A stretch of DNA of 64,000 bases, taken from the NCBI GenBank assembly GCA_001045525.1, contig LDWW01000009.1, forward strand, positions 62,001-126,000, written 5' to 3'. This document shows positions 24,409 through 54,397 of this stretch, in pieces. A model generated the notes under the pieces. The model was not told where the DNA came from, ran no database searches, and worked only from the letters and a program-made list of their open reading frames with translations. The translations under genes were made by a program, and so were the position numbers. How positions within the stretch are numbered: the first letter of the stretch is position 1; the number at the start of each line of letters is the position of its first letter. The stretch is from Chitinispirillum alkaliphilum (GTDB taxonomy: Bacteria; Fibrobacterota; Chitinivibrionia; Chitinivibrionales; Chitinispirillaceae).

Positions 24409-24462
24409 TCAATAACCCGATGTCACAAAGAAATTCCTTAAAGGCTTTGAAAGGTGGAGTTA

Positions 24463-26775
24463 ATGAAATTTTCTGCCAAAACTGCTTCCATGCTCATTTT
24501 GCTTTCTCTCCTGTCCTGCTCACTAAACCGGAAATCAGAATTTGAAGTGCAGATTGTGGTTGGGGAAGCTAACCTTAAACGTTCGTCCGGAGCAGAGCCC
24601 CTTAGAGCTTTGCAAGGTCTTGGAGCTACTGATACAGTGGAGGTGGGTGCAGAGTCAAAGATAAAGATAGAGAGCAGAAGCGGCGGGGTTCTGTACGTAT
24701 TGGGGCCTGCCTTGTTTTCGCTCCAGCCATTTTTATCAGAAAATGTAAAGATCATGCTCCATAAGGGAGAGGTTTGCGCAATCTTGTCAGAAGAAGAAAG
24801 TTTTTATATTCAAACTCCTTATATTCAAATAGAAAGTAAAGCATCTCAAATATCTGTTTATTACAGAGAGAGGGAGAAGGGTACTGTTGTTGCTGTTCTT
24901 TCCGGGGAAGCATATGTTGGGTCCGGGGGTCAGATGCATAGGTTGGTTTCCTGTGAAACAGCTTCTTTTTCAAATCAGGAGAAAAATGATATCTCGCACA
25001 CAAACCCTGCTGTTTACGAACATCTGAAAAACTGGGTGGGTATAAGCGTTGTCGAAAAACCGGTCCGTCAAAATAACTGCGTAGAGAAATTTATCCTTTT
25101 TGAAGAGAGTCCTTCTGAAGAACCGGAGTTTCAGGAGGAGAGTGAGGAGAGTGAGGAAAACCAAATTTCGGTGAAGCAGTACAAAGTTGCACCACGGCAG
25201 GTTTCTGTAGACAAGCCTCCTTTGGCCCGCTTAAATATATCTCCCCGGCTGGGTGAGGCTGGGGAAGAGATTTTGCTGGATGCTGGTTTAAGCAGAGATG
25301 CCCAGGGTTTGGCTGAACATCTTATGGTTAGATGGGATCTCAATGGTGACGGGGTCTGGGATTTGCCGCAGGAGGGAGAATACTCATCCAAAAAGCAGAT
25401 TCTTCACACCTTTGACCATCCCGGTGTCTATAACGTCTCTGTTGAGGTCAGGGATAGAATGGGCCGGCATTCAGTTGCTTCAAAACAACTTGAGATAAAA
25501 GAGGCCATAAGAGTTGAGGAGATCAGCGGGCCTTTGCAGGCTTACACCGGTCAGCAGATTGAGTTTGCACTGAAGATCTCTTCCGGTTTGGACAGAATTG
25601 ATCAGTTTCGCTGGGAGTTCAACAAAGAGGGCTTCGGTAAAATTGAGAAAACCCACCAGCCTTCAATCTGGCTGGATTTTGATCAGCCCGGAGAATACAT
25701 GCTTTCAGTGTATCTGTCAGGGGAACCGGAATCAGAAATGTCAAAACAATTTCAATTCCGAATCGTAGATAGTCCGGTGGAGGTGAGTGCCGGAGGACCA
25801 TACAGCGGCCGTACCTATCACCCGGTTGTGTTTGAAGGTAAGGTGCAAAGCAGTTTCAGAAAAGTTGAAAAAATGGAGTGGGATTTTACCGGAACGGGAG
25901 TTAGCGATTTTTCAGGGGTAAGTTCTGTCTCAGAGTATATATTTAATGAGCCGGGTGTGTACAGGGCTGTTTTCACTGCAGAATTTGATGATGGTACCAG
26001 GGTTGCAGACACTGCAATTGTAACCATTGAACACAGGCCACCGCTGGCGAATGCTGGAGAGGATGTTGCCTCCAGGCCTGGAAGAAGGGTAAGGCTTGCT
26101 GGAACCGGCGATGATCCGGAGGGAAGGATTATAAGGTATGAGTGGGATTTTGGTGGAAACGGAGAGTTTGACTGGAGTTCCGGTGAGAGTGGGGAGGTTA
26201 CCCACAGATTTGATGAGTATACAAAGGCCGTTTTGAAGGTGACCAATGAGTATGGGGTGTCTGCTCTGGATACGGTTAATATCATAATCTGCCCACCGGA
26301 AATGGCTCTTATTGAAGATGGTAAGTACTGTATAGATATCTACGAATGGCCAAACAAGCGTGGGACGGTTCCTGAGGTTAATGTCACTTATCAGGAAGCA
26401 AAGGACTCCTGTGAAAGGGTGGGAAAAAGGCTTTGTACACCGCAGGAGTGGGAAATGGCATGCCGGGACTCAAGAGACAGAAACTCATACCCTTATGGTA
26501 GAAGGTATGATACAGACAAGTGTAACACATTGGGTAATCCTTTTGTTAAAAACCAGATCGCTCCCTCAGGGACCTTTCCTGATTGTGCCGGACGATCAGG
26601 GATTTACGATATGAGCGGAAACGTGGCAGAGTGGACATTTTCGGAAGACCGCGATAAGGCTTTCGTGTACGGTGGATTTTATCAGAGTGGTGAAAATGAG
26701 AGCAGATGCGACTCAAAGCTTCTGCTTGAGAAAAACAGGAACTATTTTTATACAGGGTTCAGATGCTGCAAATAA
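24463..26775 (+). CDS. Lipoprotein with FecR-like, four PKD-like and FGE/SUMF1-like domains
   Basis: 770 residues from ATG 24463; a GTG nine bases earlier lies inside the ribosome site. Lipobox LLSC with Cys19. Residues about 30-170 resemble a FecR domain (VVGEANLKRSSG, IMLHKGEVCAIL, VVAVLSGEAYVG). Then four PKD-like repeats: about 240-345 (MVRWDLNGDGVWDLP), 350-435, 438-525 (MEWDFTGTGVSDF) and 527-615 (YEWDFGGNGEFDW). The C-terminus is a formylglycine-generating-enzyme-type lectin-like fold: RVGKRLCTPQEWEMACR, GIYDMSGNVAEWTFSED and TGFRCCK. Probably an envelope-anchored structural or binding protein, since the last domain lacks the usual RGGSW element. It shares 13 bases with lnt, whose product would acylate its Cys19. 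Confidence 0.85.
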   Translation: MKFSAKTASMLILLSLLSCSLNRKSEFEVQIVVGEANLKRSSGAEPLRALQGLGATDTVEVGAESKIKIESRSGGVLYVLGPALFSLQPFLSENVKIMLHKGEVCAILSEEESFYIQTPYIQIESKASQISVYYREREKGTVVAVLSGEAYVGSGGQMHRLVSCETASFSNQEKNDISHTNPAVYEHLKNWVGISVVEKPVRQNNCVEKFILFEESPSEEPEFQEESEESEENQISVKQYKVAPRQVSVDKPPLARLNISPRLGEAGEEILLDAGLSRDAQGLAEHLMVRWDLNGDGVWDLPQEGEYSSKKQILHTFDHPGVYNVSVEVRDRMGRHSVASKQLEIKEAIRVEEISGPLQAYTGQQIEFALKISSGLDRIDQFRWEFNKEGFGKIEKTHQPSIWLDFDQPGEYMLSVYLSGEPESEMSKQFQFRIVDSPVEVSAGGPYSGRTYHPVVFEGKVQSSFRKVEKMEWDFTGTGVSDFSGVSSVSEYIFNEPGVYRAVFTAEFDDGTRVADTAIVTIEHRPPLANAGEDVASRPGRRVRLAGTGDDPEGRIIRYEWDFGGNGEFDWSSGESGEVTHRFDEYTKAVLKVTNEYGVSALDTVNIIICPPEMALIEDGKYCIDIYEWPNKRGTVPEVNVTYQEAKDSCERVGKRLCTPQEWEMACRDSRDRNSYPYGRRYDTDKCNTLGNPFVKNQIAPSGTFPDCAGRSGIYDMSGNVAEWTFSEDRDKAFVYGGFYQSGENESRCDSKLLLEKNRNYFYTGFRCCK

Positions 26776-28486: not shown

Positions 28487-28575
28487 CCATACTCACTTAT
28501 GTATATTATCTCTTTAGAACCGATCTTTTTGCAGAATATGAAATGGAGCAATTACCGTAAGGAGTGTTTTTAGCT

Positions 28576-29850
28576 ATGCTTGATATCCAGCGTATAAGGG
28601 AAAATCCGGGGTTGATTGAGGATGCCGCAGCAAGAAAAAAGAGCCCTGTAGACATAAACGCAGTGCTTGAACTCGATCAGAAACGGCGCGAGATGATCCG
28701 TGAAGTGGAAAGGTTGAAAAGTGTCAGAAACAGTCGCTCCAAAGAGATCTCTCAGTTAAAGAAGGAGAAAAAGGACGCTGCGGATCTGATCAGAGAGATG
28801 AAAGAAGTCTCTGAATCAATAAAGACCATGGATGAGAGAGTGGTTGGTCTGGAAAGTGAAATGAATGAAGTGCTGATTCGCATTCCCAATGTACCTCAGG
28901 AGAGTGTACCTCGTGGGGAAAGCGAGAATGACAATGTGATTGTTTCAGAGTGGGGGGAGAAGCCGGAGTACGGTTTTAAACTGAAGGACCACCTGGAGTT
29001 GGGGGAATCTCTTGATATAATCGATTTTAAGAGAGGCGCTAAGATCTCCGGTGCAGGATTTCCTGTACTTAAAGGTCACGGGGCATTGCTTGAACGGGCT
29101 CTTATAAACTTTTTCCTCGATACTCATACTTTAAAGAACGGATATACAGAGATATTTCCCCCATTTCTGGCAAACAGAGCGAGTCATTTCGGAGTAGGGC
29201 AGCTTCCCAAAAACGAGGACCAGATGTACTTTGTCGGCAAGGATGATCTTTTTTGTATTCCTACCGCAGAAGTTCCGGTAACCAATCTCCATCGGGAAGA
29301 GACTCTTGAAGTAAACGAACTTTCTTTGAAATATTGTGCATACAGCGCCTGTTTCAGGCGTGAGGCTGGCTCATATGGAAAGGATACCAAGGGGTATCTG
29401 CGTGTGCATCAGTTCAATAAAGTGGAGCTTGTCAAAGTTACAGAACCCGAAAAGTCAGATGAGGAGCTTGAGGCATTACGTCAGGATGCAGAGGATATAC
29501 TTAAGGCTCTGGGTTTAAAATACAGGGTTCTTGAATTATGTGATGCAGATCTTTCCTTTGCATCTGCAAAATGCTACGACCTTGAAGTGTGGGCTCCGGG
29601 TGAAGGACGTTTTCTGGAAGTATCTTCATGCAGCAATTTTGAGGACTTTCAGGCCAGAAGAATGAATATGCGTTACAGGCCCGGAAAAGGTGAACGCCCA
29701 CGTTTTGTTCATACTCTGAACGGAAGTGGTTTGGCTACAGCAAGGATACTTGTCGCCTTGTTGGAAACATTTCAAACTGAAAAGGGTACGGTTATGATAC
29801 CGCCTCCTCTTCAACCCTACATGCATGGTTTAAAGGAGATTACACCCTGA
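28576..29850 (+). CDS. serS: Seryl-tRNA synthetase
   Basis: 424 residues from ATG 28576, with AAGGAG ending about 11 bases upstream; the frame also has a GTG at 28564 within that ribosome site. The N-terminal MLDIQRIRENPGLIEDA and the long charged coiled coil (about 30-105) bind the tRNA-Ser variable arm. The class II catalytic core follows: FRREAGSYGKDTKGYLRVHQF is motif 2 with TAEVPVTNLH before it, and LNGSGLATARILVALLE is motif 3. It charges tRNA-Ser with serine in the cytosol. The following kinase gene begins only 1 base after the stop. Confidence 0.98.
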   Translation: MLDIQRIRENPGLIEDAAARKKSPVDINAVLELDQKRREMIREVERLKSVRNSRSKEISQLKKEKKDAADLIREMKEVSESIKTMDERVVGLESEMNEVLIRIPNVPQESVPRGESENDNVIVSEWGEKPEYGFKLKDHLELGESLDIIDFKRGAKISGAGFPVLKGHGALLERALINFFLDTHTLKNGYTEIFPPFLANRASHFGVGQLPKNEDQMYFVGKDDLFCIPTAEVPVTNLHREETLEVNELSLKYCAYSACFRREAGSYGKDTKGYLRVHQFNKVELVKVTEPEKSDEELEALRQDAEDILKALGLKYRVLELCDADLSFASAKCYDLEVWAPGEGRFLEVSSCSNFEDFQARRMNMRYRPGKGERPRFVHTLNGSGLATARILVALLETFQTEKGTVMIPPPLQPYMHGLKEITP

Positions 29851-29851
29851 A

Positions 29852-31195
29852 GTGATATTTACTTTTTTGAATAAATTAAAAAACAATCGTCAGTTCAAGG
29901 ATTTTTTTCTGCAGACCAGAATGTTTTCAGTAAGAAATATTCTGCTCGTAATCTGTCTTGTATGGCTTGTTTTCTATCTGTTGTTTGTCTATACACTTAA
30001 GTCAAATCTGGACAGTCAGACAACTCAGCTCTCACAAGCAAGAGCTGAGCTTATCTCTATGAAAATTTCGGTTATGGATGAGCATGAGAAGCTGATCGAG
30101 GTTTTCAATGAGGTTATGGGCAACTCATGCAATCCGGTTATCATTGTAGACTCTGAGGGTATTCCTGTTTATTGGAAAGATATCGGGACAACCCTTTTGG
30201 GTTCATCTATGTCTTACACCGACAACGCTTCGGATGAGGAACTGGAGAAGGTCAGAAATCTGGCCCGTAAAATGAGAGGAAAAAACACACCTTTTTTAAT
30301 CGATACCGGCTCTGAGGTATACGGCAGCCTTGAATTAGTCTATGCAAACAGTTCGACTGTTCAGATGCTTGCGTGGATGCCGTTTGTGGAGATTGGTCTT
30401 GTTGCTGTGATTATTTTACTTATCTATATCTCTTTTCGAAGTATAAGAATTACGGAAAGAAGCAATTTGTGGGTTGGCTTGGCAAAGGAAACTGCTCATC
30501 AGCTTGGCACTCCGATTTCTTCCCTTATGGGGTGGTCAGAATATCTGCGTGCTGTTTGTGAACAGTGTCAGTCACAGCTTGAATTCGGAACAAATAATGA
30601 GGTATGCAGGATTTGCGACGATATCGATTATGATTTGAAAAGGCTTAACAAAGTAGCAGCAAGGTTTAGTCAGATCGGCTCGGAGCCGGACCGTCCGTTG
30701 TGTGATATTAGAGAAGTGCTCAATGACACCATAGATTATTTCAGGGTACGCCTTCCACTTCACAAAAGAAAGATTGATCTTACAACTGATTTCGCTGTTG
30801 TGCCGCTTCTGCCACTCAACAGAGATCTTGTTAGTTGGGTTATTGAAAACCTGATTAAAAACTCAATCGATGCAATAAGTTCTTCTGAGGGCCAAATTAC
30901 CATGGCTGTACAGTATGTGTCAAGCGAAAAAGTCATACGTTTCACACAGAAAGACAATGGTAAAGGTATATCAAGAGAGCAGCAGAAACGGGTGTTCTCT
31001 CCCGGTTTTACCACCAAAAAAAGAGGATGGGGGCTTGGGTTGACTCTGGCAAAGAGGATCATTGAAGATTATCACGGGGGTAAGATATATGTCGATTGGT
31101 CACAGAAACAGAAGGGGACTGAGATAGTGATTGAGTTGCCGGTTTCCCCGGAGTCTCATAAAGTATGCAAAAGTAAGGAGTTTGTGAAAGTATGA
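29852..31195 (+). CDS. Sensor histidine kinase, PorY-like partner of the PorX-type regulator
   Basis: 447 residues from GTG 29852 (AAGGAG about 14 bases upstream, inside serS). Two membrane helices (about 28-50 and 175-196) enclose a periplasmic or PAS-like sensor of about 120 residues. The kinase core follows: H-box GLAKETAHQLGTPISSLMGW with phosphoacceptor His216, N-box VIENLIKNSIDAI, G1 DNGKGIS and G2 GWGLGLTLAKRII. The HQLGTPISSLMGW form of the H-box is common in Bacteroidota kinases. Its last codon overlaps the start of the response regulator gene (ATGA), so the two form a two-component pair. PorY is the kinase of PorX in type IX secretion; equivalence is inferred from partner identity, not from overall similarity. 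Confidence 0.88.
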   Translation: MIFTFLNKLKNNRQFKDFFLQTRMFSVRNILLVICLVWLVFYLLFVYTLKSNLDSQTTQLSQARAELISMKISVMDEHEKLIEVFNEVMGNSCNPVIIVDSEGIPVYWKDIGTTLLGSSMSYTDNASDEELEKVRNLARKMRGKNTPFLIDTGSEVYGSLELVYANSSTVQMLAWMPFVEIGLVAVIILLIYISFRSIRITERSNLWVGLAKETAHQLGTPISSLMGWSEYLRAVCEQCQSQLEFGTNNEVCRICDDIDYDLKRLNKVAARFSQIGSEPDRPLCDIREVLNDTIDYFRVRLPLHKRKIDLTTDFAVVPLLPLNRDLVSWVIENLIKNSIDAISSSEGQITMAVQYVSSEKVIRFTQKDNGKGISREQQKRVFSPGFTTKKRGWGLGLTLAKRIIEDYHGGKIYVDWSQKQKGTEIVIELPVSPESHKVCKSKEFVKV

Positions 31196-32748
31196 CCGTG
31201 TCCAGGAAAAAAGTTTTGTGGGTCGATGATGAAATAGAGTTTCTCAGGGCGCATATCCTGTTTTTAGAGACGAGGGGTTACAGTGTGTTTCCTGTCTTCA
31301 GTGGAGATGATGCTGTACAGTTGATCAAAGAAAATGGTGATGACTACGATATTGTGCTGCTCGATGAGCAGATGCCTGGTAAAGACGGACTTACCACTCT
31401 TGAGGAGATAAAGGAAATTGCACCATCACTGCCGGTCGTTATGGTGACAAAGAGCGAAGAAGAAGAGGTGATGGAAGCCGCACTGGGATTGAAAATAGAC
31501 GGCTATCTTACAAAACCGGTTAATCCAAGTCAGGTACTGCTTGTATGTAAAAGACTGCTTGATTGCAACCAGCTCATCTCCAAACAGCTTAAGGAAAAAT
31601 ACCTCAGAAGTTATACTGAAATCAGAAGCCGTTTTTCTGCAGCTCTTAATGTGGCTGCCTTTGCCAGAATTTTTGATACTTTAAGTAAATGGAGCATCGA
31701 GCTTGCAGATGTGGAGGATGAAGGTCTTAGACAGATGCATGCCGGGTTGATCTCTGACTGCAATACTCTATTCTGTGACTTGGTTTCTGAGCAGTACCCC
31801 AGGTGGATTAAGGGAAAAGGGGGTCGCTCTGCAATGGCAACAGATGTTCTTGAAAAAATCGTGGTGCCAAGAATCGGACAGGGCGAAAAAACAGTAATGG
31901 TTGTTTTGAGCGGAATGAGAATCGATCAGTTTATGGATATTGAACCTGAACTCAGAAAAATTTTCAAAATAGATAAAAAATTATTCTGTTCGGTTTTGCC
32001 TTCAGACCTGAGATACTCAAGAGCATCACTGTTTACAGGTATGTACCCGGATAAGATACACAAGCTAATGCCTGATGTTTTTGAAGCTGATGAAAAGGTT
32101 TTGGCAGAAAAAGGGAAAGAGTTGCTGCTTCTGGGGCTTGAGAAGTTTGGAATAGGGGAAGACGATATATTCTATGAAGACGTTGCTAAAGGCTATACTC
32201 TTGAAGATATTAAGAAGGTTGTAGACATTTCGGAAAAGACACCTTTGACCGTTATTGCAATAGATATTGTAAAGCAGTTCATGAGCATGAGATCCGCCGG
32301 TACAATGCTCAAGGAAATTGCCTCTGATGAGAAAGCTCTGAGGAGTTTTACCACTTCATGGTTCAATACTTCTTCTGTACTTCAGCTGCTTAAGAGTTTG
32401 TCAAATGCTGGAAGAAGTGTGATAATTACATCAGATCATGGGCACATACTGTGCTCAAGAGGTACTGAAGTATATGGGGTAGATAATATCGGGCAGAACC
32501 TGCGCTGCTTGTTTGATCAGAAAATAAGTGCTGATGAAAGAAGAGTTGTGTTTCTGCAGGAACCAGCTCATTATGGCTTGCCAAATTTCTCTCCTGAAAC
32601 GAGATGTGTAATTGCAAGAGAGAATTACTACTTTATTTATCCTGAGGAATTTGAAAACTACCGGGAACAATATCTGAATAGCTTTCAGTGTGGTGGAATT
32701 TCAATGGATGAGATGATTATGCCGCTATATATCTGCAAAAGCAGATGA
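31192..32748 (+). CDS. PorX-like response regulator: receiver plus PglZ domain
   Basis: 518 residues. Receiver domain about 5-120, with acidic pocket Asp12/Asp13, phosphoacceptor Asp58 (IVLLDEQMPG), Thr86 and Lys108. A helical linker follows (about 125-200), then a PglZ/alkaline-phosphatase-superfamily domain: MRIDQF near 242-247, FCSVLPSDLRYSRASLFTGM near 265-285 and ITSDHGH near 408. This combination defines PorX, which in Porphyromonas and Flavobacterium controls type IX secretion. No DNA-binding domain is seen. Where I expect a D-x-L-R-x-D-Q motif in PorX, the sequence reads SGMRIDQ, with Ser240 at the first Asp. Two genes further along in this window (49297, 52145) encode proteins with T9SS sorting domains. 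Confidence 0.88.
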   Translation: MTVSRKKVLWVDDEIEFLRAHILFLETRGYSVFPVFSGDDAVQLIKENGDDYDIVLLDEQMPGKDGLTTLEEIKEIAPSLPVVMVTKSEEEEVMEAALGLKIDGYLTKPVNPSQVLLVCKRLLDCNQLISKQLKEKYLRSYTEIRSRFSAALNVAAFARIFDTLSKWSIELADVEDEGLRQMHAGLISDCNTLFCDLVSEQYPRWIKGKGGRSAMATDVLEKIVVPRIGQGEKTVMVVLSGMRIDQFMDIEPELRKIFKIDKKLFCSVLPSDLRYSRASLFTGMYPDKIHKLMPDVFEADEKVLAEKGKELLLLGLEKFGIGEDDIFYEDVAKGYTLEDIKKVVDISEKTPLTVIAIDIVKQFMSMRSAGTMLKEIASDEKALRSFTTSWFNTSSVLQLLKSLSNAGRSVIITSDHGHILCSRGTEVYGVDNIGQNLRCLFDQKISADERRVVFLQEPAHYGLPNFSPETRCVIARENYYFIYPEEFENYREQYLNSFQCGGISMDEMIMPLYICKSR

Positions 32749-32766: not shown

Positions 32767-33186
32767 ATGATTAAGGAAAGTAAATCAGCAGAAGAAACAA
32801 GAAAACTGGGCGCTGCTTTAGCCCGTAAAGCAGCGCCTGGTAATGTATTTGCTCTGGTCGGTGATCTTGGATGCGGGAAAACTGAGTTTGTTAGAGGCTT
32901 TGTTCATGAATTGTTCCCTGAAGCCGTGGTTAGAAGTCCCACGTTTTCTATCGTAAACTCATATGGGCCATCTTCTTTTCCTCTCTATCACTTTGACTTT
33001 TACAGGCTATGTGATTTTTCTGAGCTCGATCAGATCGGTTTTGAAGAGTATGTCGCTTCTGAAGGTGTGTGTCTCATAGAATGGGCCGATATGTTCTCTG
33101 ACTGTTTACCGCCGGGGACTATTATAATTGAATTTCTCCAAACTGATTTGGACAAACGGACAATCAAGTCTGATTTTGATTGGTAA
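32767..33186 (+). CDS. tsaE: tRNA threonylcarbamoyladenosine synthesis ATPase TsaE
   Basis: 139 residues, normal family length. The N-terminal SKSAEETRKLGAALA is followed by the Walker A loop VGDLGCGKTEFVRGF, SPTFSIVNSY, the YHFDFYRL strand and IEWADMF near the C-terminus. TsaE works with TsaB and TsaD to make the t6A37 modification on ANN-decoding tRNAs; TsaE supplies ATPase turnover. It sits 18 bases after the PorX-like gene, so is probably co-transcribed with it. Tail to tail with the TatT gene; no clear terminator hairpin was seen in the 185-bp gap. Confidence 0.95.
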   Translation: MIKESKSAEETRKLGAALARKAAPGNVFALVGDLGCGKTEFVRGFVHELFPEAVVRSPTFSIVNSYGPSSFPLYHFDFYRLCDFSELDQIGFEEYVASEGVCLIEWADMFSDCLPPGTIIIEFLQTDLDKRTIKSDFDW

Positions 33187-46543: not shown

Positions 46544-49054
46544 ATGCTGAAACTCCCTGCTTATAATATATGTAGCTTGTTTTCGAGGTGCTTTGCACTC
46601 TTCGTTCCGGTTATGCTGTTCATCATTTTTGTAGGCACCACCGTCTATCCTGATAGCGGTGATGTCGTCGTTTCCGTTCAAAAAAGTGAACCGGGAATAA
46701 CCGATAGTGTGAGCTATCAGTCTGATTATATCGAATATGATGCAGTGAAGAGGGAATTCTACCTTATTGGCAGGGCTGTGGTCAGGTATCAGAATGTGAC
46801 ACTGCTGGCAGATACAATAATATACACAACCGAAACCGATCAGTTCAGGGCAACGGGTAATCCTCATTTAATTGAGGGAAATGACACTACTTCCGGCGAA
46901 TCCATGGTTTACAATATAAGGACAAGGCGGGGGAGAGTGCAGTATGCAACCGCCCGTTTTGATGATGCGTGGTTTAGTGGAAACCAGGTCATAAAAAGTG
47001 AGAAAGATGAGCTTTTCGTGGATGAGGGCGATTATACTTCGTGTGAGTATGTAGAAAATCCCCACTATTTTTTCTATGGAAAAAACATAAAAATCGTTCC
47101 TGACGACAAAATTATCAGCCGCCCGGTGGTGTTTAATATCGGTGATGCTCCGGTGGCCGTTCTTCCCTACTTCATTTTCCCCCTGGACAGAAGCAGAAGG
47201 AGCGGGTGGCTCACGCCTGTATGGGGTGGAAGTCCTGGGAGGGGGGGCTATGTTGATAACGTGGGATACTATTTTGTACCCAATGACTATGTCGATTTTT
47301 TGTTGAGCTCAAAAATTCAGGAATTTAACTATTTCGTGCTCAATGCTGAGAGCCAGTACGCACTGAGGTATGTTCTTGATGGGAAAATATCTGCCCGATA
47401 TGTTCTTGATGAAGATATTTTAAGCCGCAGTCGGATGTGGTCAGTTGATTACAGGCATAATCAAATGCTTACTCCCGATGGTAGAACCCGTTTAAGCGGA
47501 AGGGGCAGCATCGTTTCGCAGCGTAATTTCTACCAGAGATTCAGTGAAGACTCCGATGAGTTACAGGAGCAGAACCTTACCGCTAATATGACTCTGAATC
47601 ACCGTTTCAGTGCTATAAATGCAAGCGCTCTTCTCAGATGGAACAGAACACATAACCTTGTCACTGATCAGATCAGGGAAGATATCCCTTCCCTTGAATT
47701 CAGACTTCCCAACCGCCCGCTCTTCTCTGCCACAGCGGGGCAAGACCCTTCCTGGTACAACAAAATCTACTACTCCTATAATACGAGGGCAAATGTGCGA
47801 AGAAATGCATACGGTAACGATTCCCTTCCGGGATTTGTTAGACCGGGTATGGTGCATGATTTCAACATGTCCGCCCCACAGACTCTTTTCCGGTATATAA
47901 CCCTGAACCCAACATTTTCAACCAGTCTTTCATCATTTTACGGGGCCATAGATACAACTGTAAGGGATACCAATTGGGTTAGCCGTACTGTTGAATATGA
48001 AATCTCTGATATTTCTGGGGATGAGAGATATCCTGATTATGAGCTGGTTAACATCTCCCCGAACATATTTATTAATGAATATGGGGATATGGATACCACC
48101 TATATTGTAACCAAAGTAAGTCAGCCAGAGGCGCATCTGGTGCGCGATACTCTTGATCAGTTTGTTACAACCGGGGCCTGGCAGGCTGGTGTAAACGCAT
48201 CGACCAACCTCTATGGTACATTCGCCTTTCGTCTTTTCAATATGACCGGTCTTCGTCACACGCTGACCCCAAGTATCGGGTATCAGTATCTGCCGGAGCA
48301 CAATCTCGACAAGCAGTTCTTTGATATAGGAATTCCCTACACACGCCCAAGGGAACGCCAGCAACTCCTGACCCTGAATATAGCCAATCAGTTTCAGGGA
48401 AGGCGTCAGGTGGCTTCGGGTGATAAAGGAAAGACCCGGGAGGAGAAATTCCAGCTGCTCTCTGTGGGGATGAGTACCGCCTATGATTTTGAGGCTGATA
48501 ACAGACGATGGAGAGACCTGAATCTCAACGCATCAACCTCTCACCGCAACGTAAACGTACGGTTCAATTCCGCTTTCTGGTTGTATGATCAGAATGATCT
48601 GCTATCGGCCCCCATAATGAAAAATTACCGGTTGAATATCTCCACCGGGAGTTTCAGGGTCAGAGGTACACTCTGGGATGGGGATCTGCTCTCTTTTGAC
48701 TCTCACCAGGAATCTCAGTCACCACAAGCTGCTCAGGAATGGAGCCTAAGCATAAATCCCTCCTTTACCTATTCTGCTTCCCGCACCGCGCCGGGAGAAC
48801 CCTTTGTCCCCTCAAAACAGTATACCCTAAGTGCCTCTGCAGGGTTGAACTTCACCAATAGCTGGTCTCTGAACTGGAACGGGGCGTATAATTTTATAAC
48901 GGATCAGTTTGTCAGGAACAGTTTTGTGCTCAGGGCTGATCTGGAGTGTTGGGAGATGCAGTTTACCTGGCGTCCTGAAAGACTCAACCCCGGATATCAT
49001 TTCAGGATAAACATAAAGAAAATACCCGATATTAAGTGGGAGCAACGAGGGTAG
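46544..49054 (+). CDS. lptD: LPS-assembly outer-membrane protein LptD
   Basis: 836 residues. A long hydrophobic signal (about 14-36) precedes an OstA/LptA-like beta-jellyroll (DYIEYDAVKREFYLIGRAVV to GNPHLIEGNDTT), which forms the periplasmic slide for LPS. The conserved transition DEGDYTSCEYVENPHYFFYG and LPYFIFPLDRSRRSGWLTPVWG, read in two parts, is typical of LptD. Around 550 residues of beta-barrel strands follow, rich in alternating aromatic residues, to the C-terminal end. LptD inserts LPS in the outer leaflet with LptE. Only a few Cys residues are seen (one in YTSCEY, one near the C-terminus), so the four-Cys disulfide pattern of E. coli LptD is absent. Confidence 0.93.
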   Translation: MLKLPAYNICSLFSRCFALFVPVMLFIIFVGTTVYPDSGDVVVSVQKSEPGITDSVSYQSDYIEYDAVKREFYLIGRAVVRYQNVTLLADTIIYTTETDQFRATGNPHLIEGNDTTSGESMVYNIRTRRGRVQYATARFDDAWFSGNQVIKSEKDELFVDEGDYTSCEYVENPHYFFYGKNIKIVPDDKIISRPVVFNIGDAPVAVLPYFIFPLDRSRRSGWLTPVWGGSPGRGGYVDNVGYYFVPNDYVDFLLSSKIQEFNYFVLNAESQYALRYVLDGKISARYVLDEDILSRSRMWSVDYRHNQMLTPDGRTRLSGRGSIVSQRNFYQRFSEDSDELQEQNLTANMTLNHRFSAINASALLRWNRTHNLVTDQIREDIPSLEFRLPNRPLFSATAGQDPSWYNKIYYSYNTRANVRRNAYGNDSLPGFVRPGMVHDFNMSAPQTLFRYITLNPTFSTSLSSFYGAIDTTVRDTNWVSRTVEYEISDISGDERYPDYELVNISPNIFINEYGDMDTTYIVTKVSQPEAHLVRDTLDQFVTTGAWQAGVNASTNLYGTFAFRLFNMTGLRHTLTPSIGYQYLPEHNLDKQFFDIGIPYTRPRERQQLLTLNIANQFQGRRQVASGDKGKTREEKFQLLSVGMSTAYDFEADNRRWRDLNLNASTSHRNVNVRFNSAFWLYDQNDLLSAPIMKNYRLNISTGSFRVRGTLWDGDLLSFDSHQESQSPQAAQEWSLSINPSFTYSASRTAPGEPFVPSKQYTLSASAGLNFTNSWSLNWNGAYNFITDQFVRNSFVLRADLECWEMQFTWRPERLNPGYHFRINIKKIPDIKWEQRG

Positions 49055-49296: not shown

Positions 49297-51903
49297 ATGT
49301 TTCTTAAGATCGTGTCAGTGTGCGCCTTGGTTGCCATGAGCGTTTCTGTTCATGCTGCTGACTTTGCTTTTCCATCTCACATGCCTCCCGGAGGAAAGAG
49401 TCCAAGTGAGGTAAATCAGTACATTGTCTTCAATTTTGACGACAATGCGTATTCCGGGTTGTCCGGAACCCAGTTTGAACCGGACCCAAGGGTTGTAAGT
49501 AATCCTACTTGGCAGCAACAGGGATTTGTGGGACAGCAGGATGCAGCCTGTGGTCTTAGTATTGAGGCTGGGGAAATGGGTATGTCCTGGGCTTTAAGTA
49601 CTCTCGCTGGTGGTCAGGCTGATCCTGGTTATCCGACTTTTGATGCAGGTACAGAGTATCCGCCCAGCACTATAGTTGAATTTCAGGGTACATTGTACCA
49701 GTCAAACAGATGGGTTCACGGTAGTGAGGGTAATCCCCAGGTAAACACATCAGGCTGGGAAAATCGAGGCCCTGCATCTACCGGTGGCGGCAGCCGCTCA
49801 AGAACCAATCCCGACGGTTCAAACATCAGGTTTACTTTCAGTATGCTGTCAGGTCTCTTTGTAGACACCTGGGGTAGAGAGTGGGAATCGAGAGAAAGTA
49901 AGTTCGGGTATTTTGTTCCTTCACCCAGTGAAAGCAGAGATCACGACAGAATTGCAGTTTCCTGGGGTAGGGAGATGGGTATCGGTTCCAGTCAGGGTTC
50001 TACCGACATTCAGCCAAACCAGCTTGTTGCTGTGGTAAAGCAGGCTATTGAAGCTGGGCATGAAATTGCAGACCATACTATCGACCATATGGAGAGTAAC
50101 TCTCCGCTTCCAGGTGACAGTCCATTACACAATAGCACCTGGAACCAGGAGATGGGTTTTGGCAGATGGGGTAACGAAGGGTTCAACGCCACAGATGAAA
50201 ACGTAACTCCATGGGGTACTTTTCGCGAATCTGAGCATTTCGGTCAGCCTGTAGGGCATACGGCCCAGACTCGTGGCTGGACAATGTATGCGGGTAGATT
50301 TATCTCTCAGAACGCCTGGGAAGGGGCTCTCGCGCTCTCACTTGAACAGTATGACACCTATCTTTCAGGAACTCCCGGTTATACCCGTCCTGTAGGTTTC
50401 AGAGCTCCTCGTCTGGAGGGTAACTCAGCCATGCTTTATGCATTGAAGGCTCAGGGGTACCTCTACGACTGCTCTGTTGAAGCCGGGTATGAGCCTAACA
50501 TGGATGGTACAAATGCACCATGGCCATTCACCACAGATAATGGTATACCTAATAAGGCATATCAGATCAGTGCCGGCTGGGGTACAACACATTGTACTGA
50601 GAATAGACACCATGGTCATCCATATGATTCAGCTCCTGCAGGACTGTGGCAGCTTCCTGTACAGGTAATGGTTGTTCCCGAGAATCTGCGTGATCAGGTT
50701 TGGGTTAACCATGCACGTATCAGATCTGCTTCACCAGACGGTCAGTTCAGAAATGCTCAGGATTCACTGGATACATACAATTCATTCATAGATGGTGGTA
50801 AGATCACAGGATTTGACTTCAACATGCTCATCCTTTGGGGTATGACTGGACACACATGGCTTGAAACCATGAAACACAACCTCGAATTGAGGATGAACAA
50901 CAACAAGGCACCTCTTCTTTACGGTGCTCACACAGATTACTATACTCCAATATACGACCATGCTACACTGTTGGAAGATTTTAATAGATCTTCTTACGGT
51001 CTTGTGGTAACAGAGGGCTGGAACACCTGGGTCGACCGCAGGGATGCAATGGAAGAATTTGTTGACTGGGCAGTTCAACGGGGTGCTTACTTTGTGGATG
51101 GTGTAACTCTGATCGAAAAAATCAGAGAAATGCAGCAGAATGAAGAGGTTGGTGACGCAGGTGATTTCATGTATACATGGCAATTCCAGGGTGATGATCT
51201 TGGTACCACTACTTCAGCTCAGTCATTTTCTGGTAGTCTCGACAATGCAACGGTTTCAATCGGTGCAAGACAGGGAGAAGCCTGGCCAAACCCTGCATAC
51301 AGAAGTACATTCAATGCTGGTCATCTCGAAGGTTTGACTCATATCTCTCTTGATTACCAGACAACAGCTCCGATATCACTGAGACTGGTAAGACCTAACG
51401 GTGATGCCTGGGAAGTTATTCTCTCCAACATGGCAAGACGCACTATACAAAGTGGTCTTATCCCTGTAAGCGCTTTTCAGCGTGACTGGTATGCAGAGCA
51501 CAATGATCCTCTCGATCTTTCTGAGATCACATACCTTGAAGTTAAGCTGATCAACGCAGGTCGTGAGCAGGAACAGCATACTTTAAGTCTTGGAAATATC
51601 AAAGTCTACGGTGCAGAAAACGTAAGCGTTGCTTCAACACCAAGATCTGTAAGAAGCGGTGCGATTGAGCTGCGTTCAATCTCCAATAATGCTCTGAGCC
51701 TTAACATTCCTCAGTCCGGCAGATACACTGTAAGTGTTATCTCCGCAAACGGTAGAGTTGTTAAAACTTTCAACAACGCCGACCTGACTGCAGGAATCAA
51801 CACTCTTAGCATAGACAGAGGTCTTTCAAGAGGTGTATACATGATCAGAATCAATGAGCGTGGTGCTGATACTCAGAAAGTACTGAGAGCAACCGTTCTT
51901 TGA
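49297..51903 (+). CDS. Secreted polysaccharide deacetylase with inserted chitin-binding-like module and T9SS sorting domain
   Basis: 868 residues. Signal peptide about 1-20 (ALVAMSVSVHAA). The NodB-type metal site is split. Motif 1, FNFDDNAYSG, is near residue 47. The H-x4-H motif, AGHEIADHTIDHME, is near 255. GFRAPRLEG near 368 gives the R-x-P element. Between them, about 110-160, lies a CBM5/12-like segment (GTEYPPSTIVEFQGTLYQSN, then W-E-N-R-G), the type that binds chitin. A CBM-like beta-sandwich follows at about 630-775. The C-terminal 80 residues form a T9SS type A sorting domain (SGRYTVSVISANGRVVKTF, then GLSRGVYMIRINERG). Probably deacetylates chitin or another N-acetylated glycan outside the cell. 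Confidence 0.85.
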   Translation: MFLKIVSVCALVAMSVSVHAADFAFPSHMPPGGKSPSEVNQYIVFNFDDNAYSGLSGTQFEPDPRVVSNPTWQQQGFVGQQDAACGLSIEAGEMGMSWALSTLAGGQADPGYPTFDAGTEYPPSTIVEFQGTLYQSNRWVHGSEGNPQVNTSGWENRGPASTGGGSRSRTNPDGSNIRFTFSMLSGLFVDTWGREWESRESKFGYFVPSPSESRDHDRIAVSWGREMGIGSSQGSTDIQPNQLVAVVKQAIEAGHEIADHTIDHMESNSPLPGDSPLHNSTWNQEMGFGRWGNEGFNATDENVTPWGTFRESEHFGQPVGHTAQTRGWTMYAGRFISQNAWEGALALSLEQYDTYLSGTPGYTRPVGFRAPRLEGNSAMLYALKAQGYLYDCSVEAGYEPNMDGTNAPWPFTTDNGIPNKAYQISAGWGTTHCTENRHHGHPYDSAPAGLWQLPVQVMVVPENLRDQVWVNHARIRSASPDGQFRNAQDSLDTYNSFIDGGKITGFDFNMLILWGMTGHTWLETMKHNLELRMNNNKAPLLYGAHTDYYTPIYDHATLLEDFNRSSYGLVVTEGWNTWVDRRDAMEEFVDWAVQRGAYFVDGVTLIEKIREMQQNEEVGDAGDFMYTWQFQGDDLGTTTSAQSFSGSLDNATVSIGARQGEAWPNPAYRSTFNAGHLEGLTHISLDYQTTAPISLRLVRPNGDAWEVILSNMARRTIQSGLIPVSAFQRDWYAEHNDPLDLSEITYLEVKLINAGREQEQHTLSLGNIKVYGAENVSVASTPRSVRSGAIELRSISNNALSLNIPQSGRYTVSVISANGRVVKTFNNADLTAGINTLSIDRGLSRGVYMIRINERGADTQKVLRATVL

Positions 51904-52085: not shown

Positions 52086-52144
52086 TTGTATTTATAGTTT
52101 AACTTTTTAATGACCTGACAATCAAGCTTTTTAGAGGAGGTATG

Positions 52145-54397
52145 ATGAAGGGTGCAAAAATATTGACATTGTTGCTTGCGGCCGGGATGGTTGCGGGTGC
52201 CTTTGCTCAAAACTACAGAAACAGAGGCGTATGGGATCCTACTGAGGTGTATGAGGGATCCTACAGACTCGGTACAGGTGATACTGTACAATACGGTACT
52301 TTCCCACCTGATGATCCAAACGGAGCACCACTTTACTGGTGGGCAAAATGGTGGACTCAGGGAGAAACTCCGGGTGAATTTGCCGCTCGTGGTGGAACAT
52401 CGCCCTGGGTAATGATCAATTCTGCATCCATGCCCGGTGGACAGTACAACTGGGTGGGATGGAACGGACAGCTCGAAAACACCCTTAGCCCGGGTGAAGC
52501 AGTAGTTCCTACCTGGAAAGATGGTGCAGAGGGTGCCTACACACTAATCCATGATGACATCGGTGCACTGCGTTGGGATCTTGATATCCAGCCCGGTCTT
52601 GATGTGCTTGCTGATTTCCCGCAGGTTAAAACTGCATGGGGTGTGTTTGTACAGCCGGCTACCCAGGATGAATGGGATGGTATGATGCAGATGACTATCG
52701 ATGGTCACGAAATGGTTAACCACTCATGGAACCATACCAATGCTGCTGAGCAGTGGCTCTGGTATAACCCGGGTGAAAGAATTCCGCCTGCAGAAGTTGT
52801 TGTTCCGCGTACTCTTACCGGTTTGACAGTTGATCCGCTGTGGCCGCCTTCTTCTGTGGATGGAAATCCTACATGGCCGAACCCGGACCAGTTTACTGTA
52901 GAGAATAATGTCGTGGAGGTTACTTTTGGTCCTACATACTGGACCGGATATGATCCTTCCACAAGTGAACCTCTGACTATGACTGTAACACCAAAACCTG
53001 GTGCGGAAAAGGTAACTCTTCCTACCGGTATGGAAGTATGGGTTCTTTACACCAAAAAAGATACTCTCACCGGAGAGAATGAAGGTTACGTTGCTCCTAC
53101 AGGAGCAAACTGGATGGAACTTGACTTTCTTGAGGAACATTTCCCTGAAAGAGTCAACTCAGTAGTTAGAAATGACCTGGGAAGACCTGGTTGGGTTTGT
53201 ATGCTTCACCTGACAGATCCATGGGATGAGGCTGACATCGACTCTAACGTTGTGTTGAGTAAGAATATTATCGATGAGCAGGTATACGACAGAATCAGAG
53301 CCACCGGTGGATTCGGTCCTTACTTTGCACCGAACAAATCCACTGAATACTATGTCTACCCTTATGACTCATACTCAGAAGAAAGTCACGGATGGCTTGA
53401 GGCCGCAGGATATGTTGGTGCACGTGGTGGTGCAAAATCAGGTGAACCAATGCCCGGTGATTTCTTCCATCCATATGCTATCGATTATGATGCATTCTAC
53501 ATCTACGGCGGTGACACTTCCAATGTGATTAATGCCGGTGGTAACAACCCTCACCAGCTGCTTTCACTCGATGGTATGGTAACCGCAATTCTTGAAACTA
53601 ACGGATACATGATCCGTGAGCTTCACTCTGTTAATATCGTTGAGGACTGGAAAAACATCAACGACCCTCTACACGACGGATGGTGGGGTGGTATTCCCAA
53701 TGACCTGTACAGAGATCACATCGAGTGGATTGATGGTCTTATAACTCAGAACAGACTCGCTGTGCTTACTCCTTCTGAAGCTGTTAAATACCGTATGGTT
53801 GCAAATGCAGTTACAGGTGTGAACATGTCACAGTCCGGAAGTGAGTACAGACTCACCGTTAATGCAGATAATATTGCTGATAAGTACAAAGATGAAATCT
53901 CTGTTATTGTCAGACTTAACAATGGTGTAGAAAAGCTTGCAACCGAGTATGTTAACGGTGAACAGCAGCTTGCCGGTGCTACATGGGAAAAATGGCCAAG
54001 AATGGCTCCGCGTAAGCTCGATGCTGCCGGAACTGCATGGTCTGTAAGTATCAACCCATATCTTGGTGAACTGAAACTTCTTCCAAATCAGGATCACGAA
54101 GGTGGTATCAGAGACGATGTATCTGTAGCCCGCGGAACAAGAAACAGTGCCGCTCTTAGTGGTGCAGCTTTCCTTGGAATGCAGAACAATCAGATTTCTC
54201 TAAGACTTCCTGCAGGAAACTATGAGGCTGCAATCTACAACCTCAATGGTCAGGTAGTTAGAAACATCTCTCTTACCTCCGAAGGTGGTATTGTAAGAAC
54301 ATCAATGGATGCTTCCATCAGCAGAGGTCTCTATCTCCTCAGAGTTAGAAATCAGGCTGGTGATGTTGCATTACAGAGCAGAATCATGTTGAAATAA
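52145..54397 (+). CDS. Secreted polysaccharide-deacetylase-like protein with T9SS sorting domain
   Basis: 750 residues from the second of two adjacent ATGs, with GAGGAGG 5 bases upstream. Signal peptide about 1-19 (LTLLLAAGMVAGAFA). NodB-type features: the Asp pair in LIHDDIGAL near residue 136 and the H-x4-H element in GHEMVNHSWNHTN near 187. An insertion of about 90 residues (Pro/Trp-rich, beta) follows the second motif. YVYPYDSYSEESHGWLEAAGY resembles the family's later strand. The C-terminal 75 residues are a T9SS type A sorting domain (GNYEAAIYNLNGQVVRNISL, then ISRGLYLLRVRNQAG). The motif spacing is irregular, so activity is less certain than for its neighbour, from which it may derive by an old duplication. 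Confidence 0.8.
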   Translation: MKGAKILTLLLAAGMVAGAFAQNYRNRGVWDPTEVYEGSYRLGTGDTVQYGTFPPDDPNGAPLYWWAKWWTQGETPGEFAARGGTSPWVMINSASMPGGQYNWVGWNGQLENTLSPGEAVVPTWKDGAEGAYTLIHDDIGALRWDLDIQPGLDVLADFPQVKTAWGVFVQPATQDEWDGMMQMTIDGHEMVNHSWNHTNAAEQWLWYNPGERIPPAEVVVPRTLTGLTVDPLWPPSSVDGNPTWPNPDQFTVENNVVEVTFGPTYWTGYDPSTSEPLTMTVTPKPGAEKVTLPTGMEVWVLYTKKDTLTGENEGYVAPTGANWMELDFLEEHFPERVNSVVRNDLGRPGWVCMLHLTDPWDEADIDSNVVLSKNIIDEQVYDRIRATGGFGPYFAPNKSTEYYVYPYDSYSEESHGWLEAAGYVGARGGAKSGEPMPGDFFHPYAIDYDAFYIYGGDTSNVINAGGNNPHQLLSLDGMVTAILETNGYMIRELHSVNIVEDWKNINDPLHDGWWGGIPNDLYRDHIEWIDGLITQNRLAVLTPSEAVKYRMVANAVTGVNMSQSGSEYRLTVNADNIADKYKDEISVIVRLNNGVEKLATEYVNGEQQLAGATWEKWPRMAPRKLDAAGTAWSVSINPYLGELKLLPNQDHEGGIRDDVSVARGTRNSAALSGAAFLGMQNNQISLRLPAGNYEAAIYNLNGQVVRNISLTSEGGIVRTSMDASISRGLYLLRVRNQAGDVALQSRIMLK

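Follow-up and report, generated by a model that had tools for sequence, protein, structure and literature searches.

Organisation of the locus

The window analysed here is a stretch of 64,000 nucleotides from the genome of Chitinispirillum alkaliphilum (4.43 Mb in 160 contigs), in which a sensor histidine kinase gene and a gene for a PorX-type regulator lie between serS and tsaE. In Bacteroidota the switch pair of the sensor kinase PorY and the regulator PorX governs type IX secretion. The features that bear on the argument, given as window positions with their strand, are the following.

28564-29850, + strand: serS (seryl-tRNA synthetase), which opens the conserved block; the majority of Fibrobacterota loci, and several loci of other phyla, have a homologue 5' of the kinase gene or porX
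29852-31195, + strand: putative PorY-family sensor histidine kinase, 447 aa, with HATPase_c domain and H-box AKETAHQLGTP; 629 bits to A1, our profile of Fibrobacterota kinases
29996-30367, + strand: extracytoplasmic sensor segment (kinase residues 49-172), with weak resemblance to PAS/CACHE domains
30497-30499, + strand: codon of the predicted phospho-accepting His216 of the kinase, a column invariant in A1
31192-31195, + strand: ATGA overlap of kinase stop and porX start, read from the sequence
31192-32748, + strand: porX, encoding a receiver, three-helix linker and PglZ/APS domain, 518 aa (NF052313, 498 bits; AlphaFold model)
31210-31560, + strand: PorX receiver domain, with D12, D13, D58, T86 and K108 intact
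31363-31365, + strand: codon of the predicted phosphorylation site Asp58 of PorX, invariant across all PorX examined
31879-32745, + strand: PglZ/APS domain, its catalytic site lost (S240, L273, K361, S365 and C500 substituted; D415 and H416 kept)
32767-33186, + strand: tsaE, 3' of porX in most FCB loci (PF02367, 127 bits)
49297-51903, + strand: protein with T9SS type A sorting domain (TIGR04183, 28.1 bits; cut-off 23)
52142-54397, + strand: protein with T9SS type A sorting domain (TIGR04183, 27.7 bits; cut-off 23)

The kinase reading frame opens with a GTG one base past the serS stop codon, and its own stop overlaps the start of porX by ATGA, as the sequence-only reading of this DNA had described. 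The same reading had placed two genes with type A sorting domains 17-20 kb away, and these are the last two features listed; the product of the second has weak similarity to polysaccharide deacetylases (PF01522, 19.7 bits, below cut-off). An LptD gene (PF19838, 219 bits; 46544-49054) adjoins the pair. Upstream of Lnt, at 24454-26775, lies a lipoprotein-like reading frame with a FecR-like, two PKD and an FGE-sulfatase domain, which scores 36 bits to GldK.

A variant PorX with a degraded PglZ site

The combination of receiver and PglZ domain had been read as the architecture of PorX, and family model, structure and tree agree with this. The regulator matches the NCBIfam model T9SS_RR_PorX (NF052313) over residues 7-517 with 498 bits against a cut-off of 300, contains the Pfam domains Response_reg (81 bits) and PglZ (44 bits), and is about 33% identical over its full length to PorX of Porphyromonas gingivalis. 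The 17 best PDB matches of its AlphaFold model (pLDDT 88) are all solved PorX chains, led by 7pvk (TM 0.84). In an unrooted tree lacking a true outgroup the protein groups with PorX of its own order and was not seen to fall outside the PorX clade; a Fibrobacteres sequence (L085) nests within the clade of the host's phylum, in keeping with the earlier assignment of this DNA to a probable member of the Fibrobacterota. No second receiver-PglZ family was seen among 151 genomes of the phylum. The PglZ domain is homologous to that of BREX PglZ (NF033449, 52.6 bits), which has neither receiver nor kinase and whose model has a cut-off of 250 bits, far above the score of the host protein.

The PorX proteins of P. 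gingivalis (PMC5005315, PMC4800418, PMC8050853) and Flavobacterium johnsoniae (PMC10951265, PMC11320123) allow a closer comparison. The former is, like the host protein, a receiver-linker-PglZ regulator; the latter has the same fold (TM 0.75-0.82) and, again like the host protein, an intact receiver. They differ from it in the PglZ site, and in the motor genes of their genomes: F. johnsoniae PorX binds GldL and is active as a zinc phosphodiesterase, whereas the host protein has lost five of the seven site residues and its genome has no recognisable GldL, nor are PorL, PorM and PorN of P. gingivalis detectable there. The zinc ligands and nucleophile of the F. johnsoniae enzyme are D237, T271, D360, H364, D414, H415 and H499 (PMC11320123); at the corresponding positions the host carries S240 for aspartate, L273 for the nucleophilic threonine, K361 for aspartate, and S365 and C500 for histidines, and keeps D415 and H416. 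This loss went unnoticed in the sequence-only reading. It makes the host protein a variant and not a standard PorX, the bi-zinc phosphodiesterase site being common to the characterised members but not demanded by the family model.

All seven residues are present in each of the 79 PorX examined from outside the Fibrobacterota, with threonine or serine accepted as nucleophile. These were found with scan patterns placed in the receiver and ranked by similarity to the host PorX, so that there was no selection for an intact PglZ site. Among 39 sampled Fibrobacterota PorX the full site occurs in only four, from families f3 and f6, which are presumably enzyme-active.

L038:5965-7551: PorX with intact site
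L039:5983-7551: PorX with intact site
L040:5986-7566: PorX with intact site
L041:6317-7894: PorX with intact site

By parsimony the state of the whole site changed at least three times. Within the host's own order, receivers of degraded but kinase-bearing PorX are 0.584 identical to outside PorX and those of intact PorX 0.590, and the PglZ domain falls from 0.412 in intact copies to 0.317 in degraded copies with a kinase. The fold of the PglZ domain is predicted to be retained in the host protein, which on these substitutions is most likely a pseudo-phosphodiesterase; our literature search found no paper linking PorX with the word 'pseudoenzyme'.

The site could instead be altered rather than dead, binding a ligand or a single metal through D415 and H416 and sensing rather than cutting. 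That both residues remain in the host and in most degraded Fibrobacterota copies, that the predicted fold is kept, and that mutants of the zinc site in P. gingivalis matter more than loss of catalysis (PMC11320123) all speak for this, and family f13, in which none of the seven residues is kept, speaks against it. We regard such a sensing role as possible, if somewhat improbable; it is a variant of the explanation that we favour below, and is compatible with it.

The partner kinase and its linkage to porX

A search with the A1 profile found one strong kinase (269-428 bits) in each of the 20 non-Fibrobacterota PorX genomes tested, the next-best kinase in these reaching at most 108 bits. The host kinase has transmembrane segments at about residues 30-48 and 173-191 and its histidine at H216; two Bacteroidales members of the family (385-398 aa) have segments at 10-28 or 15-33 and at 151-169, a loop of about 120 residues and H188. 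The published plan of PorY is 395 aa, segments at 14-36 and 149-173, and H193 (PMC5005315). This match of the Bacteroidales members, together with the presence of one such kinase per PorX genome, identifies the family as that of PorY, and membership of the host kinase is supported at the level of sequence, the comparison with P. gingivalis PorY (PGN_2001) being by published plan only: in both, two transmembrane segments flank an extracytoplasmic loop some 115-125 residues long, and the histidine-kinase core follows the same plan. The trees of PorX and of the kinase, both unrooted, agree in outline.

The sensor segment was modelled with a pLDDT of 76. Its best Foldseek match is the extracytoplasmic PAS domain 3cwf (E 0.03, TM 0.4-0.5), and no match in the fold search had E below 0.001; the resemblance to PAS/CACHE domains is weak and suggestive only. 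The PorY of a Gemmatimonadetes MAG (L088:4256-4981) appears to carry a duplicated sensor segment. PorY of Cloacimonadota and PorX of family f13 sit on very long branches, with more than 1.4 changes per column (L171, L172, L071, L072). One of these loci, L071, looked like a kinase-PorX fusion of 923 aa, which is a reading-frame artefact, the kinase being out of frame.

The order SerS-kinase-PorX-TsaE recurs across the Fibrobacterota and in other phyla, so that kinase and PorX can hardly be neighbours by accident. SerS-kinase-PorX is found in Zixibacteria, one Ignavibacterium MAG and several other MAGs, kinase next to PorX in Gemmatimonadota, and PorX next to TsaE in most of the PorX-bearing phyla found. 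Close parallels to the host are the SerS-PorY-PorX(-TsaE) loci of Zixibacteria and the Ignavibacterium MAG (L081, L083, L105) and the PorY-PorX locus of the Gemmatimonadetes MAG (L088). Kinase and PorX are linked in all four, and the genomes of L083, L105 and L088 are, like the host's, without GldL/M/N; unlike the host protein, all four PorX retain seven of seven PglZ site residues. In Bacteroidota the kinase is located away from porX, and in P. gingivalis porX and porY lie apart, whereas the host genes are adjacent and overlapping. Read most simply from this distribution, with the trees unrooted, the linked SerS-kinase-PorX-TsaE block looks like the older arrangement and the separation in Porphyromonas like a derived one.

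The ATGA overlap itself is not kept in relatives, which rules it out as a conserved coupling device: kinase-porX junctions range from -11 to more than +200 bp, and that of the sister species is +15. The earlier proposal that the cognate kinase is fixed by a fusion-like coupling fails for the same variability, and because within the Fibrobacterota the kinase was lost three to four times and moved once.

Receiver conservation and presence of the kinase

In eight Fibrobacterota genomes no kinase lies beside PorX, and a whole-genome search of seven of these (all but G100) found none elsewhere; in two further genomes, of genus g12, the kinase has moved to another site. Compared with the 79 outside PorX, receivers with a linked (29 proteins) or moved (2) kinase reach identities of 0.541-0.603, and the eight whose kinase was lost 0.309-0.538; overall the values are 0.58 with the kinase kept and 0.41 with it lost. 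Control proteins of the same genomes are unchanged (SerS 0.528/0.529, TsaE 0.320/0.328). The difference in receiver identity by kinase presence gives a Mann-Whitney p of 9e-6, a test that ignores relatedness; the three to four independent losses go in the same direction in nearly every pairing and are too few to reach significance on their own. As the receiver decays where the kinase is lost and SerS and TsaE do not, these sequence comparisons offer genetic evidence that the adjacent kinase would be the partner of this receiver.

Distribution of PorX and SprA

Full-length PorX occurs in about 47 of the 151 genomes of the phylum, in families f1-f6, f11, f13 and f14. One large family, f8, presumably the Fibrobacteraceae, contributes about 94 sampled genomes that have none. 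SprA scores above the cut-off in 145 of the 151 genomes, among them nearly every member of f8. PorX is therefore, as far as sequence searches tell, not required wherever SprA occurs, type IX secretion being able to run without the pair, which contradicts a published generalisation (PMC10951265). Within the host's own family one genome that is 98% complete (G050) has no PorX and another of the same genus (G064) has one, a probable recent loss.

Outside the phylum, a pattern scan of genome contigs recovered PorX in KSB1, Zixibacteria, Ignavibacteria, Balneolota, Rhodothermota, Gemmatimonadota, Calditrichota, Cloacimonadota, Kapabacteria and Bacteroidota. The idea of a PorXY-like circuit in a diderm outside the Bacteroidota thus holds for its two components, PorX and a PorY-family kinase, and has to be widened in that the circuit is not peculiar to this host, PorX being FCB-wide.

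The conserved linkage of the pair is with serS and tsaE and not with type IX secretion genes, and many genomes with SprA have no PorX, both of which would suit an old regulator of envelope or growth that belongs to the SerS/TsaE neighbourhood, with control of type IX secretion confined to Bacteroidota and co-occurrence with SprA due to shared ancestry. We consider this unlikely, given that SprA is over cut-off in all 20 of the non-Fibrobacterota PorX genomes tested and that neither PorX nor SprA is over cut-off in the control genome of Bacteroides ihuae.

Type IX secretion components of the host genome

The host genome encodes a SprA/Sov translocon (443-447 bits, cut-off 200; contig C39), 13 matches to the PorV family and 44 to sorting domains; PorV family and sorting domains were found in 29 of 29 genomes. 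A type IX link of the host pair is plausible because of these components. With 44 sorting-domain matches in 4.43 Mb, about 0.6 would be expected per 64 kb and the two found are one tandem pair, so the nearness of cargo genes, which had been counted as evidence for the link, is uninformative.

The profiles for GldL (PF22827), GldM (PF12081) and GldN (PF19841) had no match in the host and 30 other non-Bacteroidota FCB genomes and were positive in four of four Bacteroidota controls. TIGR03513 was likewise negative for GldL over 29 genomes, save one weak sub-cut-off match in G131; TIGR03517 was negative for GldM in the host genome, the only one covered, in agreement with the Pfam N-terminal model, which was run alongside the Bacteroidota controls. 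GldK-like proteins with an FGE domain reach 36 and 19 bits in the host against a cut-off of 350. An FGE-domain gene (L036:7922-9088) lies directly upstream of host sprA (L036:9057-15269) and overlaps it, a candidate for a GldK-like role. Of the genes named in the sequence-only reading (porK/L/M/N, sprA and porV), SprA and the PorV family were thus recovered, so that the core is not wholly absent; GldL/M/N went undetected and the GldK-like matches are weak. A full PorKLMN-type system is not shown in the host, and its GldL/M/N may have diverged too far for these profiles to recognise.

We also think it unlikely that Fibrobacterota replace GldLM by a PMF-driven motor, divergent or analogous, on which phosphorylated PorX docks through its receiver as a CheY-like switch, as in F. 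johnsoniae. In favour of this, a phosphomimetic F. johnsoniae PorX receiver binds GldL and the D54A form does not (PMC10951265), and it is the receiver that stays conserved in every lineage retaining the kinase. Against it, the motor profiles are negative in 31 of 31 non-Bacteroidota genomes and positive in four of four Bacteroidota, and for Melioribacter and Ignavibacterium a published survey lists no components beyond PorV, SprA and Plug (PMC11705866).

A model for the PorY-PorX pair

The best explanation, which we think probable, is that the host carries an FCB-wide PorY-PorX pair in its old linked arrangement, acting as a phospho-switch on how an SprA-type secretion system is expressed or assembled. 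The membrane kinase would sense an envelope signal through its extracytoplasmic domain, autophosphorylate at His216 and pass the phosphate to Asp58 of PorX. Phosphorylated PorX may then tune type IX secretion by dimerising or docking under the control of its phosphate, its most likely target being expression of the SprA/PorV-type system. In P. gingivalis SigP is an ECF sigma factor, and by analogy the route might lead through such a factor. Since the PglZ catalytic site is, by sequence, gone, PorX of the host lineage would not act by oligonucleotide hydrolysis, and docking on PorL/GldL is improbable because GldL is undetectable in the genome at profile level. Most likely, then, the host protein would be a phospho-switch with a pseudo-phosphodiesterase that acts without PorL.

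More tentatively, at slightly less than an even chance, we propose that throughout the non-Bacteroidota FCB phyla PorY-PorX controls a type IX system lacking PorLMN, that PorX of the Fibrobacterota has repeatedly become a pseudo-phosphodiesterase, and that the conserved task of PorX may be some other phospho-dependent binding, neither docking on PorL nor hydrolysis. Our literature search found no experiment on PorX in Fibrobacterota. Two models compete for the action of PorX: in one it switches the rotary PorL/M motor in the manner of CheY, in the other it is an enzyme acting on oligonucleotides. These genomes present a natural test of both, with motor genes undetected and the enzyme site, by sequence, destroyed; the kinase-receiver pair is nonetheless kept, and the receiver decays only upon loss of the kinase.
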